A DNA stretch of 64,000 nt from Beijerinckiaceae bacterium (lineage in GTDB: Bacteria; Pseudomonadota; Alphaproteobacteria; Rhizobiales; Beijerinckiaceae): the NCBI GenBank assembly GCA_947452455.1, contig CANGBX010000002.1:62001-126000 (forward strand), read 5' to 3'. Below are positions 15,432 through 29,939 of this stretch, one piece after another. The number at the start of each line of letters is the position of its first letter. Position 1 is the stretch's first letter. The translations under genes were made by a program, and so were the position numbers. The notes beneath the pieces were generated by a model. The model ran no database searches and was not told where the DNA came from. It was given only the letters and a program-made list of their open reading frames with translations.

Positions 15432-16070
15432 TTACTTCGAGAGGTAAGGCTGCAAATGCGGCCACACTTCGACACCGCCGCGCCATGTCATTTCAATTGC
15501 GACATAGACGATGATGACCAGGCCCACATAGGCGATCCAGCGATAACGCTGGAGGAGGCCCGCGATATAATTCGCAGCCAATCCCATGAGACCAATCGAC
15601 AGCACGAGGCCGAAGACCAGAATATAGGGATAGTCGCGCGCGGCTCCCGCAACGGCGAGCACATTGTCGAGCGACATGGAAACGTCAGCGACAATGATTT
15701 GCCAAGTCGCTTGCGCGAAGGTTTTCTGCGGCGCATTGGCTTCGGCTTGCGCAATCACGGAATCCGCATCTTCGCCGCCATGACCGGCGCGCAATTCGCA
15801 CCACATTTTCCAGGCGACCCAAACAAGCAACAAGCCGCCGACGAGAAGCAGGCCGACAATCTGCAAGAGCTGTGTGGTCAAACCGGCAAAAATAATACGC
15901 AGCACAGTTGCTGCACCAATGCCGATCAGAATGACTTTGGTCCGTTGATCTTTGGGCAGGCCAGCAGCTGCAAGGCCAATGACAATGGCATTATCGCCCG
16001 CCAAAACGAGGTCGATCATAATGACCTGCATCAGGGCGGAGAGGGCATCAAGAGTGAAATAGGCGCTCAT
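15432..16070 (-). CDS. TerC/YjbE-family integral membrane protein, probable metal ion exporter
   Basis: The 212-residue protein has about seven hydrophobic segments. It carries the TerC family acidic motifs LVLAGDNAIVIGLAA (helix 1) and DVSMSLDNVLAVAGAA (middle), whose Asp and Asn residues are proposed to handle metal ions. Members such as YjbE/YceF and MeeF/MeeY are linked to Mn2+ export or metalation of exported enzymes. Start at ATG 16070 follows AAGGAC. A 197-bp gap separates it from the chromate transporter gene upstream, and inside that gap lies a structured element (16145-16194) also found before the DUF465 gene. Metal-dependent control of this gene by the leader is a hypothesis. Confidence 0.85.
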   Translation of the reverse strand: MSAYFTLDALSALMQVIMIDLVLAGDNAIVIGLAAAGLPKDQRTKVILIGIGAATVLRIIFAGLTTQLLQIVGLLLVGGLLLVWVAWKMWCELRAGHGGEDADSVIAQAEANAPQKTFAQATWQIIVADVSMSLDNVLAVAGAARDYPYILVFGLVLSIGLMGLAANYIAGLLQRYRWIAYVGLVIIVYVAIEMTWRGGVEVWPHLQPYLSK

Positions 16071-16144
16071 GGTCTGTCCTTGACATCAAGCGACCTGAAA
16101 CGCGTCTTCGGCATGTGTGAAGATCGTGACCAGGCCATATGTGT

Positions 16145-16194
16145 CCAGTCCGACATCACAACGCATCAGGCGTTATCAGAGGGGCCCGGTCTGG
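16145..16194 (-). ncRNA. Candidate structured leader RNA element, copy A (upstream of terC/yjbE)
   Basis: Read on the plus strand, CCAGTCCGACATC is joined through the hairpin AACGC-ATCAG-GCGTT to CAGAGGGGCCCGGTCTGG. CCAG pairs with CTGG and CCG with CGG around one T-T mismatch. The loop sequences GTCCGACATC and CAGAGGGGCCCGGTC are identical in copy B at 29740-29786, while both stems differ but still pair. The element lies 75 nt upstream of the TerC start, inside its probable 5' leader. The strand is uncertain; minus is chosen because both copies precede minus-strand genes. Confidence 0.5.
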
Positions 16195-16267
16195 TGGATC
16201 TACAGCTACCGTGCGGATATACGTTCTTCAAGTCCGAAGTCTGCCATTTAACGCATTCGTGAAGGGA

Positions 16268-26201: not shown

Positions 26202-28019
26202 TTAAGTTCGTGCCGCCCAATCGGGCGCAGGCGCCGTAAATGTCAGCAACTCACCACTTGCTGGATGCGCAAAACTGATCTGCCATGCGTGCAGACAAAG
26301 CGGGGCTTCGCCCACATCCTTGGTCAGGCGCGGCGCTGCATCGCCTGCGCGGTAAGCGTCATCCCCCACAACAGCAAAGCCCAGATGCGAACAATGGATG
26401 CGGATCTGGTTCGTGCGCCCCGTCAAGGGCCGCGCCTCGATCAGGCTCGTGCCGTCGCTTAAGCGCTGCACAACTTTAAACAAAGTGGTCGCCTCATCAC
26501 CATTCTGCTCATCGACCTCGCGTGTGCCAGCTACGCGAGACTCTTTGCCAATCGGCGCATCGCAGGCAAACTCGTCTTGCGCGGGATGGCCATGCACGCG
26601 CACCAGATAGGTCTTGTTCACTTGGCCCTCAGCAAAGGCCTTTTGCAGCCGCCCGGCAAAATGATTGCTGCGTGCTGCAATCACAAGACCCGTGGTGTTG
26701 GCATCCAGCCGATGTGCGGGCCTTAGCTTCTGTGGCCGGTAAACTGTGTCGAGTGCATGCTGCAAAGTGTTGCGCGTGTAGCGTCCACCCGCATGCATGG
26801 GCAAAGGGGCAGGCTTGTTCAGCACCACCAGCGCTTCATCTTCGTAGAGCACGCCGATATCGCCAGATACATCAGGTTCGATGATCTGGGGATGGCGATG
26901 CAGCAGACGATCACCCGCATGCACAAGATCATTTGCGCCGAGCACTCGGTGATTTGCATCGAGCAGATGGCCCACACGGCATTGCTCTTCCCAGTAATCT
27001 GCGGGCAGATGCCCCAGTAAACGACAGAAAGTCTCAAGCACTGTGAGGCCTTCGCACGCCTCCGGTACGCGCAGGGGGCGGAAAATATCTTCCGGCAAAC
27101 TTCCGGGTAGCGGGTTCATCGCCGCGCGCATGGCGTGGTTGCGCGCATCCAGCTGTTCCGCGGCTTGCTCGGCATCCGTGCGGTAACACCACGGGCAGGA
27201 TTTTCCCAGCACATAGCGCGTGTCGCGCTGCTCATCAGCGGTGAGCGGTGACAGGCAGGCAAAACATTGCGCGGCATCTGACACGTGAAGTGATGGATCG
27301 ACACCCACGCGCTGGTCGAAGACAAAGCAATCGCCTTTGTAATGCGCGCCGCCACATTCTTCGAAATATTTCAGAATGCCGCCGTCCAGTTGGAACACAT
27401 TGCGAAAGCCCTGAGACTCCATATAGGGGCCGGCCTTCTCACAACGGATGCCCCCGGTGCAGAACATGACGATGGTTTCGTCCTTGAGTTCGTCGGGCAG
27501 TTTGGCAACAGCGGCAGGAAAGTCGCGGAAATGATCGACGCCGGCTGGCAGTGCGTTCTCGAATGTCCCGAGCTTCACCTCATAGTCATTGCGCGTATCG
27601 AGCAAAGTGATTTTGCGCCCCTCATCGAGCCAGGCTTTTAATTGTGAGGGTGCAAGTTTGGGCGAAGTGCGTTTCGAGGGGTCAATGCCTAGCACGCCAA
27701 AGGCAATGATCTCGCGCTTGATGCGCACCAGCATCCGCCGGAAGGGTTGATTGGCCGTGTAACTATATTTGGCTGTCAGCGCCTCAAGGCCGGGGATCGC
27801 GCGCAGGCGGGCCAAGAGGGTCTCGATGTCATGCGCCTCACCAGCCACAAAAAGATTGATGCCTTCCGTGCTCAGCAGGATCGTGCCGCGCAAATGTTTC
27901 GCGCCACTCAATGCGAGCAGCTCGGTGCGCAGCGCCTGTAGCTCTTGCAAGGGCGCAAAGCGATAGGCCGCAATGTTTACGATTGGTAGGGAGGGGGGTG
28001 TTTTGAGTTCGGTTTCCAC
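26202..28019 (-). CDS. Fusion of tRNA uridine(34) hydroxylase (TrhO/YceA rhodanese) and RluA-family pseudouridine synthase
   Basis: One 605-residue frame joins two RNA-modifying enzymes. Residues 10-300 are TrhO-like: an acylphosphatase-like N-domain, then a rhodanese domain with LLDTRNDYEVKLGTF and the catalytic loop CTGGIRCEK (C187). A Cys-rich end follows with CFAC at 252-255 and CPWC at 275-278. Residues 310-605 are an RluA-type synthase with the catalytic Asp in HRLDANTTGL (D440) and a later GRTNQIRIHCSHLG motif. TrhO makes 5-hydroxyuridine at tRNA position 34 from prephenate-independent O2 use; RluA enzymes make pseudouridine in rRNA or tRNA. There is no stop or frameshift at the junction. 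The GTG start at 28019 coincides with the predicted transcription start. Confidence 0.88.
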   Translation of the reverse strand: METELKTPPSLPIVNIAAYRFAPLQELQALRTELLALSGAKHLRGTILLSTEGINLFVAGEAHDIETLLARLRAIPGLEALTAKYSYTANQPFRRMLVRIKREIIAFGVLGIDPSKRTSPKLAPSQLKAWLDEGRKITLLDTRNDYEVKLGTFENALPAGVDHFRDFPAAVAKLPDELKDETIVMFCTGGIRCEKAGPYMESQGFRNVFQLDGGILKYFEECGGAHYKGDCFVFDQRVGVDPSLHVSDAAQCFACLSPLTADEQRDTRYVLGKSCPWCYRTDAEQAAEQLDARNHAMRAAMNPLPGSLPEDIFRPLRVPEACEGLTVLETFCRLLGHLPADYWEEQCRVGHLLDANHRVLGANDLVHAGDRLLHRHPQIIEPDVSGDIGVLYEDEALVVLNKPAPLPMHAGGRYTRNTLQHALDTVYRPQKLRPAHRLDANTTGLVIAARSNHFAGRLQKAFAEGQVNKTYLVRVHGHPAQDEFACDAPIGKESRVAGTREVDEQNGDEATTLFKVVQRLSDGTSLIEARPLTGRTNQIRIHCSHLGFAVVGDDAYRAGDAAPRLTKDVGEAPLCLHAWQISFAHPASGELLTFTAPAPDWAART

Positions 28020-28166: not shown

Positions 28167-29144
28167 TTACGCCTTCACCCCCCGTGTCTTCCACAAAGAC
28201 CAGCCCACACCCGCCGCCAGAATGGCGAAGGTGATCGACAATGACACGACGGGCGGGAATTTCGCCAGTCCGAAGAGGTCGGCCACAAAAATCTTCGAGC
28301 CAATGAAGATCAGCAAAACTGCTAGCGCATATTTCAGATAGTGGAAACGATGGACCATGGCAGCAAGAGCAAAATAAAGCGCGCGCAGCCCCAAGATCGC
28401 AAAAATATTCGATGTGTAGACAATGAACGGATCGGTCGTGATCGCGAAAATTGCAGGCACACTATCAACCGCAAACACCACATCGACAATCTCGACCATG
28501 GCCAGCGCCAGAAACAGTGGCGTGACATAGGTTGAGGATTTTCCTGTCACAGCATCCGTCTGACGCACGAAGAACTTCTCTCCATGCAGTTCATCCGTCA
28601 CCGGCAGATATTTTTTGATGACACGCATTGCGCCGCTGGTGCCGACATCATAATTTTTGTCGGCAGTCTTCCACATTTTGATTCCGGTCAGGATCAAGAA
28701 GGCAGCAAAGACGTAAAGCACCCAGCCGAATTTCTCGACCAAGGTTGTGCCAAGGCCAATCATAATCGCGCGCAGCACGATCACGCCCAAAATGCCCCAG
28801 AACAAAACGCGGTGCTGATATTGGCGGGGAATGGCGAAATAAGTGAAGATCATCGCGATGACAAAGACATTGTCCATCGCCAGACTTTTCTCGATGACAA
28901 AGCCGGTGATGTATTGAAGGCCCGCTGTCTGGCCCAGATACCACCAGACCCAGCCGCCAAAGGCCATGCCAAGGCCCATATAGACGGCTGACAGAACGAG
29001 GCTTTCAGTTACGCCAATCTCGCGTTGTTTTTTATGCAGCACGCCCAGATCAAGTGCGAGAAGCGTGGCGACAATGGCCACAAAGGCCAGCCACATCCAA
29101 ACGGGTGTGCCAAGCCAAATAATTTCAAGAAAGGCCAAGATCAA
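28167..29144 (-). CDS. TerC-family membrane protein (Alx/YkoY type)
   Basis: The 325-residue protein has about nine hydrophobic segments. It carries both TerC acidic motifs, GFVIEKSLAMDNVFVIAMIF near residue 85 and MVEIVDVVFAVDSVPAIFA near 215, which hold the metal-handling Asp and Glu residues. Length and segments match Alx/TerC rather than the shorter YjbE type encoded at 15432. Alx and its relatives export Mn2+ or help metalate secreted enzymes. The start codon is TTG at 29144; no ATG fits the first helix. It lies beyond a terminator from the zinc-ribbon gene, so it probably has its own promoter. Confidence 0.85.
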   Translation of the reverse strand: MILAFLEIIWLGTPVWMWLAFVAIVATLLALDLGVLHKKQREIGVTESLVLSAVYMGLGMAFGGWVWWYLGQTAGLQYITGFVIEKSLAMDNVFVIAMIFTYFAIPRQYQHRVLFWGILGVIVLRAIMIGLGTTLVEKFGWVLYVFAAFLILTGIKMWKTADKNYDVGTSGAMRVIKKYLPVTDELHGEKFFVRQTDAVTGKSSTYVTPLFLALAMVEIVDVVFAVDSVPAIFAITTDPFIVYTSNIFAILGLRALYFALAAMVHRFHYLKYALAVLLIFIGSKIFVADLFGLAKFPPVVSLSITFAILAAGVGWSLWKTRGVKA

Positions 29145-29214: not shown

Positions 29215-29511
29215 TCAGTCGAACAGTTCCGACAAGAATGATTTTTTACTTTTACTCTGCTTGTAATCATCATCGTTATGCCGATAGGCCGTCCGCGCCA
29301 TGTCGGGGCGCGCAGGCGCGCTGGCATAGACAGGGGCGGGCGCCGCTGCAGGTTGGCTGCGCTCGATAATCTTGTCGAGTTCGCCTCTGTCCAGCCAGAC
29401 GCCGCGACAGGTGGGGCAATAATCGATTTCAATATCGGCACGTACCGAGAGTTGTAGCCCGCTTTTGCAAATAGGGCAGGCCATGGCGGCCACTGTGTCT
29501 GCGCTTCGCAT
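29215..29511 (-). CDS. Zinc-ribbon (zf-TFIIB) protein
   Basis: The 98-residue protein has CPIC near residue 12 and CPTCRGVWLDRGELDKII near residue 32. This CxxC-x17-CxxC zinc ribbon is of the TFIIB-like family found in many bacterial proteins of unknown role. After residue 50 there is an Ala/Pro-rich linker and a lysine-rich end (QSKSKKSFLSELFD). GGGAAG precedes the ATG 29511. It begins two bases after the DUF465 stop, so the two are co-transcribed, and it ends at a strong terminator. Confidence 0.8.
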   Translation of the reverse strand: MRSADTVAAMACPICKSGLQLSVRADIEIDYCPTCRGVWLDRGELDKIIERSQPAAAPAPVYASAPARPDMARTAYRHNDDDYKQSKSKKSFLSELFD

Positions 29512-29513
29512 GA

Positions 29514-29693
29514 TTAAATCTTCCCATGTTCATAAAGATCGACCAGTCGGTGCAAGCGGTCTTTCACCGCAAGCTTGCGCTTTTTCAGTCTCTCAACGCG
29601 CAATCGGTCTGCCGCCGCCCCTTTCTGCTCGACGCGGATTTCCTCATCGAGCTTACGATGCGTGCGCTTCAACATTTCAACATGGGGTGTCAT
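29514..29693 (-). CDS. DUF465 (YdcH-like) small coiled-coil protein
   Basis: The 59-residue product MTPHVEMLKRTHRKLDEEI continues with ERLKKRKLAVKDRLHRL. It is short, highly charged and helical with heptad spacing, as in DUF465/YdcH/SlyX-like proteins common in alphaproteobacteria. The ATG 29693 follows GGAGAGAGG; the frame stays open to 29828 but that part contains the structured leader. It heads a two-gene unit with the zinc-ribbon gene. The function of the family is not known. Confidence 0.82.
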   Translation of the reverse strand: MTPHVEMLKRTHRKLDEEIRVEQKGAAADRLRVERLKKRKLAVKDRLHRLVDLYEHGKI

Positions 29694-29739
29694 GTGCCTC
29701 TCTCCATTTAGAATGGATCGCCACCATGTGTGGGGCGAT

Positions 29740-29786
29740 ACGGTCCGACATCGCGGAAGAATGTCCGCCAGAGGGGCCCGGTCCGT
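29740..29786 (-). ncRNA. Candidate structured leader RNA element, copy B (upstream of DUF465 gene)
   Basis: Read on the plus strand, ACGGTCCGACATC leads through the hairpin GCGGA-AGAATG-TCCGC to CAGAGGGGCCCGGTCCGT. ACGG pairs with CCGT and CCG with CGG around a T-T mismatch, as in copy A at 16145-16194. The stem bases differ between copies but remain paired, while loop sequences are identical. Another hairpin, ATCGCC/GGCGAT, follows before the DUF465 Shine-Dalgarno on the minus strand, and GTGCC/GGCAC precedes it. It lies 47 nt upstream of the DUF465 ATG. The 305-bp gap holds no other gene. Confidence 0.5.
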
Positions 29787-29939
29787 GAGATCAAGGTGGG
29801 TATGAATTGTGCCGGTTCCAAGGCACACAGCCGCAGATCACGCGGGCTTGACCAATGATTGTTCGACTTTCTCATCAGCTGGGATTTTTCAAAAACCCTG
29901 TCTTTCAAAATCGAGCTCGGCTAATCTCGGCAAGAGACT

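Follow-up and report, generated by a model that had tools for sequence, protein, structure and literature searches.

Two terC RNA elements lie upstream of TerC genes

The window analysed here is a stretch of 64,000 nt from a Beijerinckiaceae bacterium (assembly GCA_947452455.1, contig CANGBX010000002.1, positions 62,001-126,000 of the forward strand), and all coordinates below refer to it. The window contains two copies of a short structured element, each lying upstream of, and co-directional with, a row of genes that includes a TerC-family member, which is the gene context of the Rfam family RF03067 (terC RNA).

29736-29789, minus strand: terC RNA element, copy B (RF03067; cmscan, 54.9 bits, model positions 1-59)
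29514-29693, minus strand: DUF465 protein, 59 aa, behind copy B (PF04325, 44.5 bits)
29215-29511, minus strand: Zn-ribbon TFIIB-like protein, 98 aa as the longest frame (PF13453, 61.5 bits)
28167-29144, minus strand: TerC, Alx type, 325 aa (PF03741, 179.9 bits; TIGR03718, 411.3 bits)
16141-16197, minus strand: terC RNA element, copy A (RF03067; cmscan, 49.7 bits)
15432-16070, minus strand: TerC, YjbE type, 212 aa, behind copy A (PF03741, 156.3 bits; TIGR03717, 214.3 bits)

The earlier note on this DNA had described a duplicated element, and both copies were located by sequence where it had placed them. The window has the shared 15-mer CAGAGGGGCCCGGTC at two places only, 29769-29783 and 16177-16191, and a second shared part, CCGACATC, lies at 29745-29752 and 16150-16157. 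As had been described, intact hairpins of differing sequence connect the constant parts, and the changes in the outer stem compensate between the copies. The RNA of the element corresponds to the minus strand, so that the constant parts read 5'-CCGGGCCCCTCTG ... GATGTCGG-3' and the T-T mismatch of the outer stem becomes A-A.

A scan of the whole window against the 4227 families of Rfam 15 returned three matches, one tRNA and the two terC RNAs. Both copies cover the full RF03067 model (positions 1-59) and score above its gathering score of 39.9 (copy B, E = 9.2e-7; copy A, E = 1.4e-5). With these E-values, obtained for the window against all 4227 families, the likeness of the copies is beyond chance, as the note had argued. 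The note had also held that the element fits no known riboswitch class, and had itself counted a match with an existing Rfam family among the refuting outcomes. This part of its proposal is given up: both copies belong to RF03067, a family named for its terC gene context, and a novel RNA class is ruled out. Because Rfam already catalogues the element, any claim of discovery closes; terC RNA is a poorly understood RNA switch candidate and not a novel class. In comparison with the catalogued motif, the invariant loops, the stems and the terC gene context are the same and both copies are full-length. We see no substantial difference, except that copy B places a DUF465 and a zinc-ribbon gene ahead of terC. 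A search of the bacterium's own genome for RF03067 found two elements, copies A and B only. A plus-strand HgcF candidate scored 13.8 bits, below the gathering score of 70 for that family, and was rejected.

In the same window, a 605-aa frame (26202-28019, minus strand) combines a TrhO-type tRNA uridine hydroxylase/sulfurtransferase (NF003703, residues 13-283; NF001133, residues 16-241) with an RluA-family pseudouridine synthase (TIGR00005, residues 323-599). It is a predicted fused RNA modification enzyme.

Covarying stems flank a near-invariant internal loop

Elements for comparison came from 161 loci, three matches below the cut-off being left out. A pattern of the conserved core located 160 elements in 157 of the 161 loci; loci L028, L131, L147 and L158 lack the pattern and were excluded. 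On the RNA strand, the outer stem P1 is followed by an asymmetric internal loop and then by the hairpin P2, which is free in sequence and length. Within the internal loop, GCCCCUCUG on the 5' side faces GAUG on the 3' side. This RF03067 architecture is present in the alignment of copy B and in the pair counts over 157 distinct elements. The parts of copy B, in RNA order, are as follows.

29778-29786, minus strand: P1 outer stem, 5' strand ACGGACCGG (from sequence and covariation; the Rfam structure line pairs the inner seven)
29769-29777, minus strand: conserved internal loop, 5' side GCCCCTCTG
29753-29768, minus strand: P2 hairpin GCGGA..TCCGC, variable in sequence and length
29749-29752, minus strand: conserved internal loop, 3' side GATG
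29740-29748, minus strand: P1 outer stem, 3' strand TCGGACCGT (same basis; one A-A mismatch, at P1 position -2)

Among the 157 distinct elements, CGGGCCCCTCTG is identical in 152 and GATGTCGG is present in 151, a near-invariance that is partly built in because the elements were located by a pattern of this same core, the Rfam search that supplied the loci having no such requirement. P1 positions -3 to -6 are paired in 94, 85, 71 and 56% of the elements, compared with 64, 63, 43 and 41% in column shuffles, and P2 positions 1-8 in 65-99% compared with 37-93%. The excess pairing over these positions amounts to z = 4 to 15, the shuffles taking no account of relatedness among the elements. Changes on both sides were counted in 38-58 elements per P1 pair and in 7-74 elements per P2 pair. 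Both stems thus covary over the 157 elements, which bears out the earlier description of a structured, covarying, riboswitch-like leader. Columns -7 to -10 displayed no pairing excess over shuffles in the same 157 elements. At P1 position -2 a mostly constant A is faced by T, G or A (T-A 80, G-A 48, A-A 13, few others), with no pairing excess over shuffles (z = 0.9, 157 elements). Of the conserved T-T mismatch that had been proposed, the mismatch itself is therefore present in the outer stem, as A-A on the RNA, while its constancy is not, the position varying over the elements.

A dispersed repeat or a DNA-level operator without a role as RNA would also yield an element that is short, duplicated and high in G+C. 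However, the element keeps a fixed strand before genes, only two copies were found in the genome, compensatory changes occur in both stems, and P2, which spans the distance between the cores, consists of stems of many sequences and bridges anything from 14 to 68 nt. We regard this reading as already contradicted and as very improbable; the E-values, the two genomic copies and the covarying stems together rule out a repeat or a chance match.

The flanking hairpin of the earlier note is a perfect 6-bp inverted repeat, TGTGCC..GGCACA, at 29808-29827, about 18 nt 5' of copy B on the RNA strand and outside the Rfam model. It may form an additional hairpin or serve as an operator.

Folding suggests a two-state switch on translation

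The RF03067 membership of the copies, their strand, their gene context and the covariation of their stems are established; the switch mechanism that we propose has moderate support, from folding statistics. A signal would stabilise the asymmetric internal loop, P1 would form, and the ribosome-binding site would become more accessible (ON). In the absence of the signal, either the conserved 5' strand or the 3' strand of P1 would pair with downstream sequence and P1 would be broken. In copy B, and in the Alx-type leaders taken together, this OFF state would cover the ribosome-binding site. The features concerned are listed below.

29697-29705, minus strand: Shine-Dalgarno sequence GGAGAGAGG of the DUF465 gene (in the free fold as predicted, its AGAG and GGC pair with the conserved CUCU and GCC)
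16183-16191, minus strand: copy A GACCGGGCC, P1 5' strand and start of the conserved loop, pairing downstream in the predicted minimum-energy free fold
16128-16136, minus strand: sequence GGCCTGGTC downstream of copy A, predicted competitor that breaks P1 (minimum-energy fold)

From the 160 elements, 140 have a seed-classified gene start 15-300 nt away, and de-duplication by shared 6-mers left 116 leaders. Fold tests used the 105 of these with starts at 22-200 nt, among them 58 of Alx type and 16 of YjbE type; start codons are the first in-frame starts, uncurated. For each leader, the free ensemble was compared with an ensemble in which the aptamer fold was imposed, and openness was scored from -16 to the start codon. 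The fold energies leave out ligand and tertiary contacts, and the leaders, although de-duplicated, are uncorrected for phylogeny.

Over the 105 leaders, imposing the aptamer increased openness by 0.107, compared with 0.042 in dinucleotide shuffles (p = 2e-6) and 0.032 when upstream regions of other genes from the same loci served as the leader (p = 9e-7). The probability of P1 in the free ensemble was 0.116, compared with 0.223 with the regions of other genes (p = 2e-7). Judged by the larger gain and the lower free P1, the native sequences seem adapted to compete with P1 and, as long as the aptamer has not formed, to keep the ribosome-binding site hidden. Swapping leaders among elements left the gain nearly unchanged (0.107 native, 0.089 swapped, p = 0.3), a result that an invariant core as target would predict; it gives little element-specific covariation with the expression platform. 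Native leaders competed slightly more, the free-ensemble probability of P1 being 0.116 compared with 0.145 in swapped leaders (p = 8.5e-5). For a platform that would be mutually exclusive with the aptamer fold, the evidence is divided: the folding effects were significant in all 105 leaders together and in the 58 Alx-type leaders, whereas the direct start-region test given below was negative. In the 16 YjbE-type leaders, which include that of copy A, coverage of the ribosome-binding site was not above controls (0.037 vs 0.002, p = 0.3), and only competition with P1 was seen.

The two copies in the window follow this division. Copy B, folded freely, is predicted to pair its conserved CUCU and GCC with the Shine-Dalgarno stretch, next to which a short CCATT..AATGG hairpin forms, and the region from -16 to the start passes from 42% unpaired to 69% unpaired when the aptamer is imposed. 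At copy A, the downstream competitor breaks P1 in the predicted fold, the ribosome-binding site being little affected (46% to 54%).

RNAduplex of single strands against the leader yielded modest signals, some of them close to the P2-strand negative control. Complementarity of start regions to CCGGGCCCCTCTG was not significant relative to the start regions of other genes (complementary 6-mers in 16/122 vs 26/211, p = 0.11), although relative to permuted cores the difference is larger by about 2.4 standard deviations. The 5' strand of P1 is repeated downstream, as GGTCCG in 14 of 116 leaders (3.4 expected) and as GGTCCGG in 10 of 116 (1.1 expected); in 4 of the 14, GGTCCG starts within 11 nt of the start codon. 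Intrinsic terminator control was considered and rejected: T-runs are not enriched (TTTTT in 1 of 108 leaders, 2.0 expected), which makes intrinsic terminators unlikely, and none was found in the copy B leader.

Taken as a whole, the folding statistics suggest that the RF03067 leader pair before the TerC gene rows forms a two-state, signal-stabilised switch on translation, a reading to which we give slightly better than even credence. As a riboswitch in the strict sense, binding a ligand directly, terC RNA is an unproven candidate.

Distribution and associated genes

Family searches found terC RNA in 52 of 385 genomes of the class, in 60 of 199 of the order and in 64 of 398 genomes of the phylum, nine of these last belonging to one family outside the class; the three sets overlap, and each includes the bacterium's own genome. 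Among 14 control genomes, only Caulobacter vibrioides carries it. The motif was reportedly first described in a 2017 paper, and its range takes in Alphaproteobacteria and Pseudomonadales.

The earlier note had foreseen further matches, mostly before terC or DUF465 genes; many were found, mostly before terC and sometimes before DUF465 genes. By seed search, TerC is the first recognised downstream gene in 110 of the 160 elements, a count in which at least one locus (L157) actually has a TerB gene, missed by the seeds, in first place; TerC lies within 1.45 kb downstream in 118 of 160. Representatives of other first genes were named by Pfam as DUF4112, TerB, DUF533, YegS lipid kinase, Tim44, zinc-ribbon and DUF465. 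Single cases were a sodium/calcium exchanger (Na_Ca_ex), a CitMHS transporter, a carbonic anhydrase (L084) and ATPase inhibitor zeta. Twelve of the 160 elements were unclassified by seed; some of their genes have since been named by Pfam, and several scanned proteins have no Pfam name. Loci L190-L210 were inspected outside these counts. A later locus set added a second Na_Ca_ex behind terC RNA (L205, after L138) and, in second position, an M48 peptidase and a Bax1-I protein (L193). DUF465 followed by TerC was seen in L201, L202 and L204, and L193 has DUF465 and later a zinc ribbon; as the DUF465-TerC order recurs in relatives, the layout behind copy B is no accident of this genome.

Further arrangements were observed at individual loci. 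Back-to-back pairs of terC RNAs, about 100-150 nt apart, occur in L014, L023 and L067, with TerC on one side and DUF4112 on the opposite strand. A protein of about 100 aa recurs behind terC RNAs in L136, L062, L051, L052, L057 and L108, two scanned members being without a Pfam match. The first gene behind the terC RNA of L071 (positions 1617-2183 of that locus) encodes 189 aa without a Pfam match, and its start resembles a lipoprotein signal by eye.

The mixture of associated genes resembles a stress regulon rather more than the pathway of a single ligand. The invariant loop might accordingly be bound by a regulatory or ribosome-associated protein that blocks or frees translation. The invariant part, about 20 nt between two ordinary helices, is small, and the company of TerC with YegS, Tim44, DUF533, TerB, M48 peptidase and Bax1-I would suit such a regulator. 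Against this, downstream sequence competes with P1 as it does in riboswitches, although a protein could use the same fold. We consider a protein-binding leader rather improbable.

The signal and the manganese riboswitch

A catalogued leader RNA before TerC genes still matters, as its signal was not found in a literature search. Searches on terC RNA, RF03067 and the terC motif gave no paper on the element among the matches listed, judged by titles and the starts of abstracts, and none was found with riboswitch, alphaproteobacteria and manganese or with orphan riboswitch. The comparative data provide a switch model open to experiment, and they are grounds for seeking the signal of this leader beyond Mn2+.

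The obvious candidate is nevertheless Mn2+, with terC RNA as the functional counterpart, for TerC genes, of the yybP-ykoY riboswitch (RF00080). Passages of PMC10550928 and PMC13274385 ascribe Mn efflux or Mn metalation roles to TerC proteins, PMC10550928 (2023) linking them to the metalation of exported enzymes. According to the same passages, TerC genes elsewhere are under yybP-ykoY, Bacillus subtilis meeY is riboswitch-controlled, as is E. coli alx by the title of a work cited there, and Vibrio parahaemolyticus terC is predicted to be under yybP-ykoY. The NCBIfam names of both TerC families in the window, R_switched_YjbE and R_switched_Alx, agree with such control.

Several observations speak against this reading. 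RF00080 matches (E <= 0.001) co-occur in 25 of the 52 terC-RNA genomes, where 7.6 are expected, and in 17 of 51, where 5.6 are expected, with both families over the cut-off, shared ancestry of the genomes being uncorrected in both comparisons. For 24 of the 25 shared genomes, 24 Mn2+ riboswitch loci were read. Using sequence motifs that we take to mark GDT1 and MntP, 16 carry the GDT1 and 4 the MntP motif, one has a cation-diffusion facilitator (CDF) and three are unnamed; no TerC gene was found in these 24. The 28 RF00080 loci read in total comprise 20 with a GDT1-motif frame, 4 with an MntP-motif frame and 4 with neither (the CDF of L181 and three unnamed), and TerC seeds gave one 18-bit match, in the frame of the GDT1-motif locus L176. 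Pfam named five of the genes, as GDT1 (two), MntP (two) and CDF (one). Conversely, when the 1.45 kb downstream of each of the 160 terC RNAs was searched for the GDT1 and MntP motifs, neither was found behind any of them. The two leader RNAs also differ in sequence and size (177 model positions for RF00080, 59 for terC RNA), and RF00080 has no match in the window at its gathering score and none in the own genome at E <= 0.001.

Where a cell already possesses an Mn2+ aptamer but places TerC under a different RNA, that second RNA probably responds to a different signal. The co-occurrence and the separate gene sets thus argue weakly that terC RNA reads a signal other than plain Mn2+. A different Mn2+ threshold of terC RNA is conceivable, and we rate the manganese reading as unlikely. 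Rather than Mn2+ excess as such, the signal is probably some ion or condition connected with the metalation of membrane or secreted proteins. The additional terC-RNA genes point, as a suggestion only, to ion handling and to stress of the membrane or of secretion. A broader and tentative proposal, possible in our estimation and not favoured, is that terC RNA is an ON-type translational riboswitch for a non-Mn2+ signal and that metal-related membrane proteins are split between two RNA sensors. Mn2+ exporters would then answer to yybP-ykoY, and terC RNA would control TerC together with proteins of membrane or secretion stress (M48 peptidase, Bax1-I, YegS, Tim44, DUF533, Na/Ca exchanger).

The alx leader is known as a sensor of alkaline pH, and terC RNA might likewise use its switch fold to sense alkaline pH or membrane or ion stress. 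Na_Ca_ex (L138, L205), carbonic anhydrase (L084) and Bax1-I as a second gene (L193) are in keeping with this, but each such gene occurs only once or twice, and we hold the reading to be doubtful. The passages of PMC13274385 point both ways, stating that E. coli Alx acts at alkaline pH and that terC is without a growth effect at alkaline pH in Vibrio.
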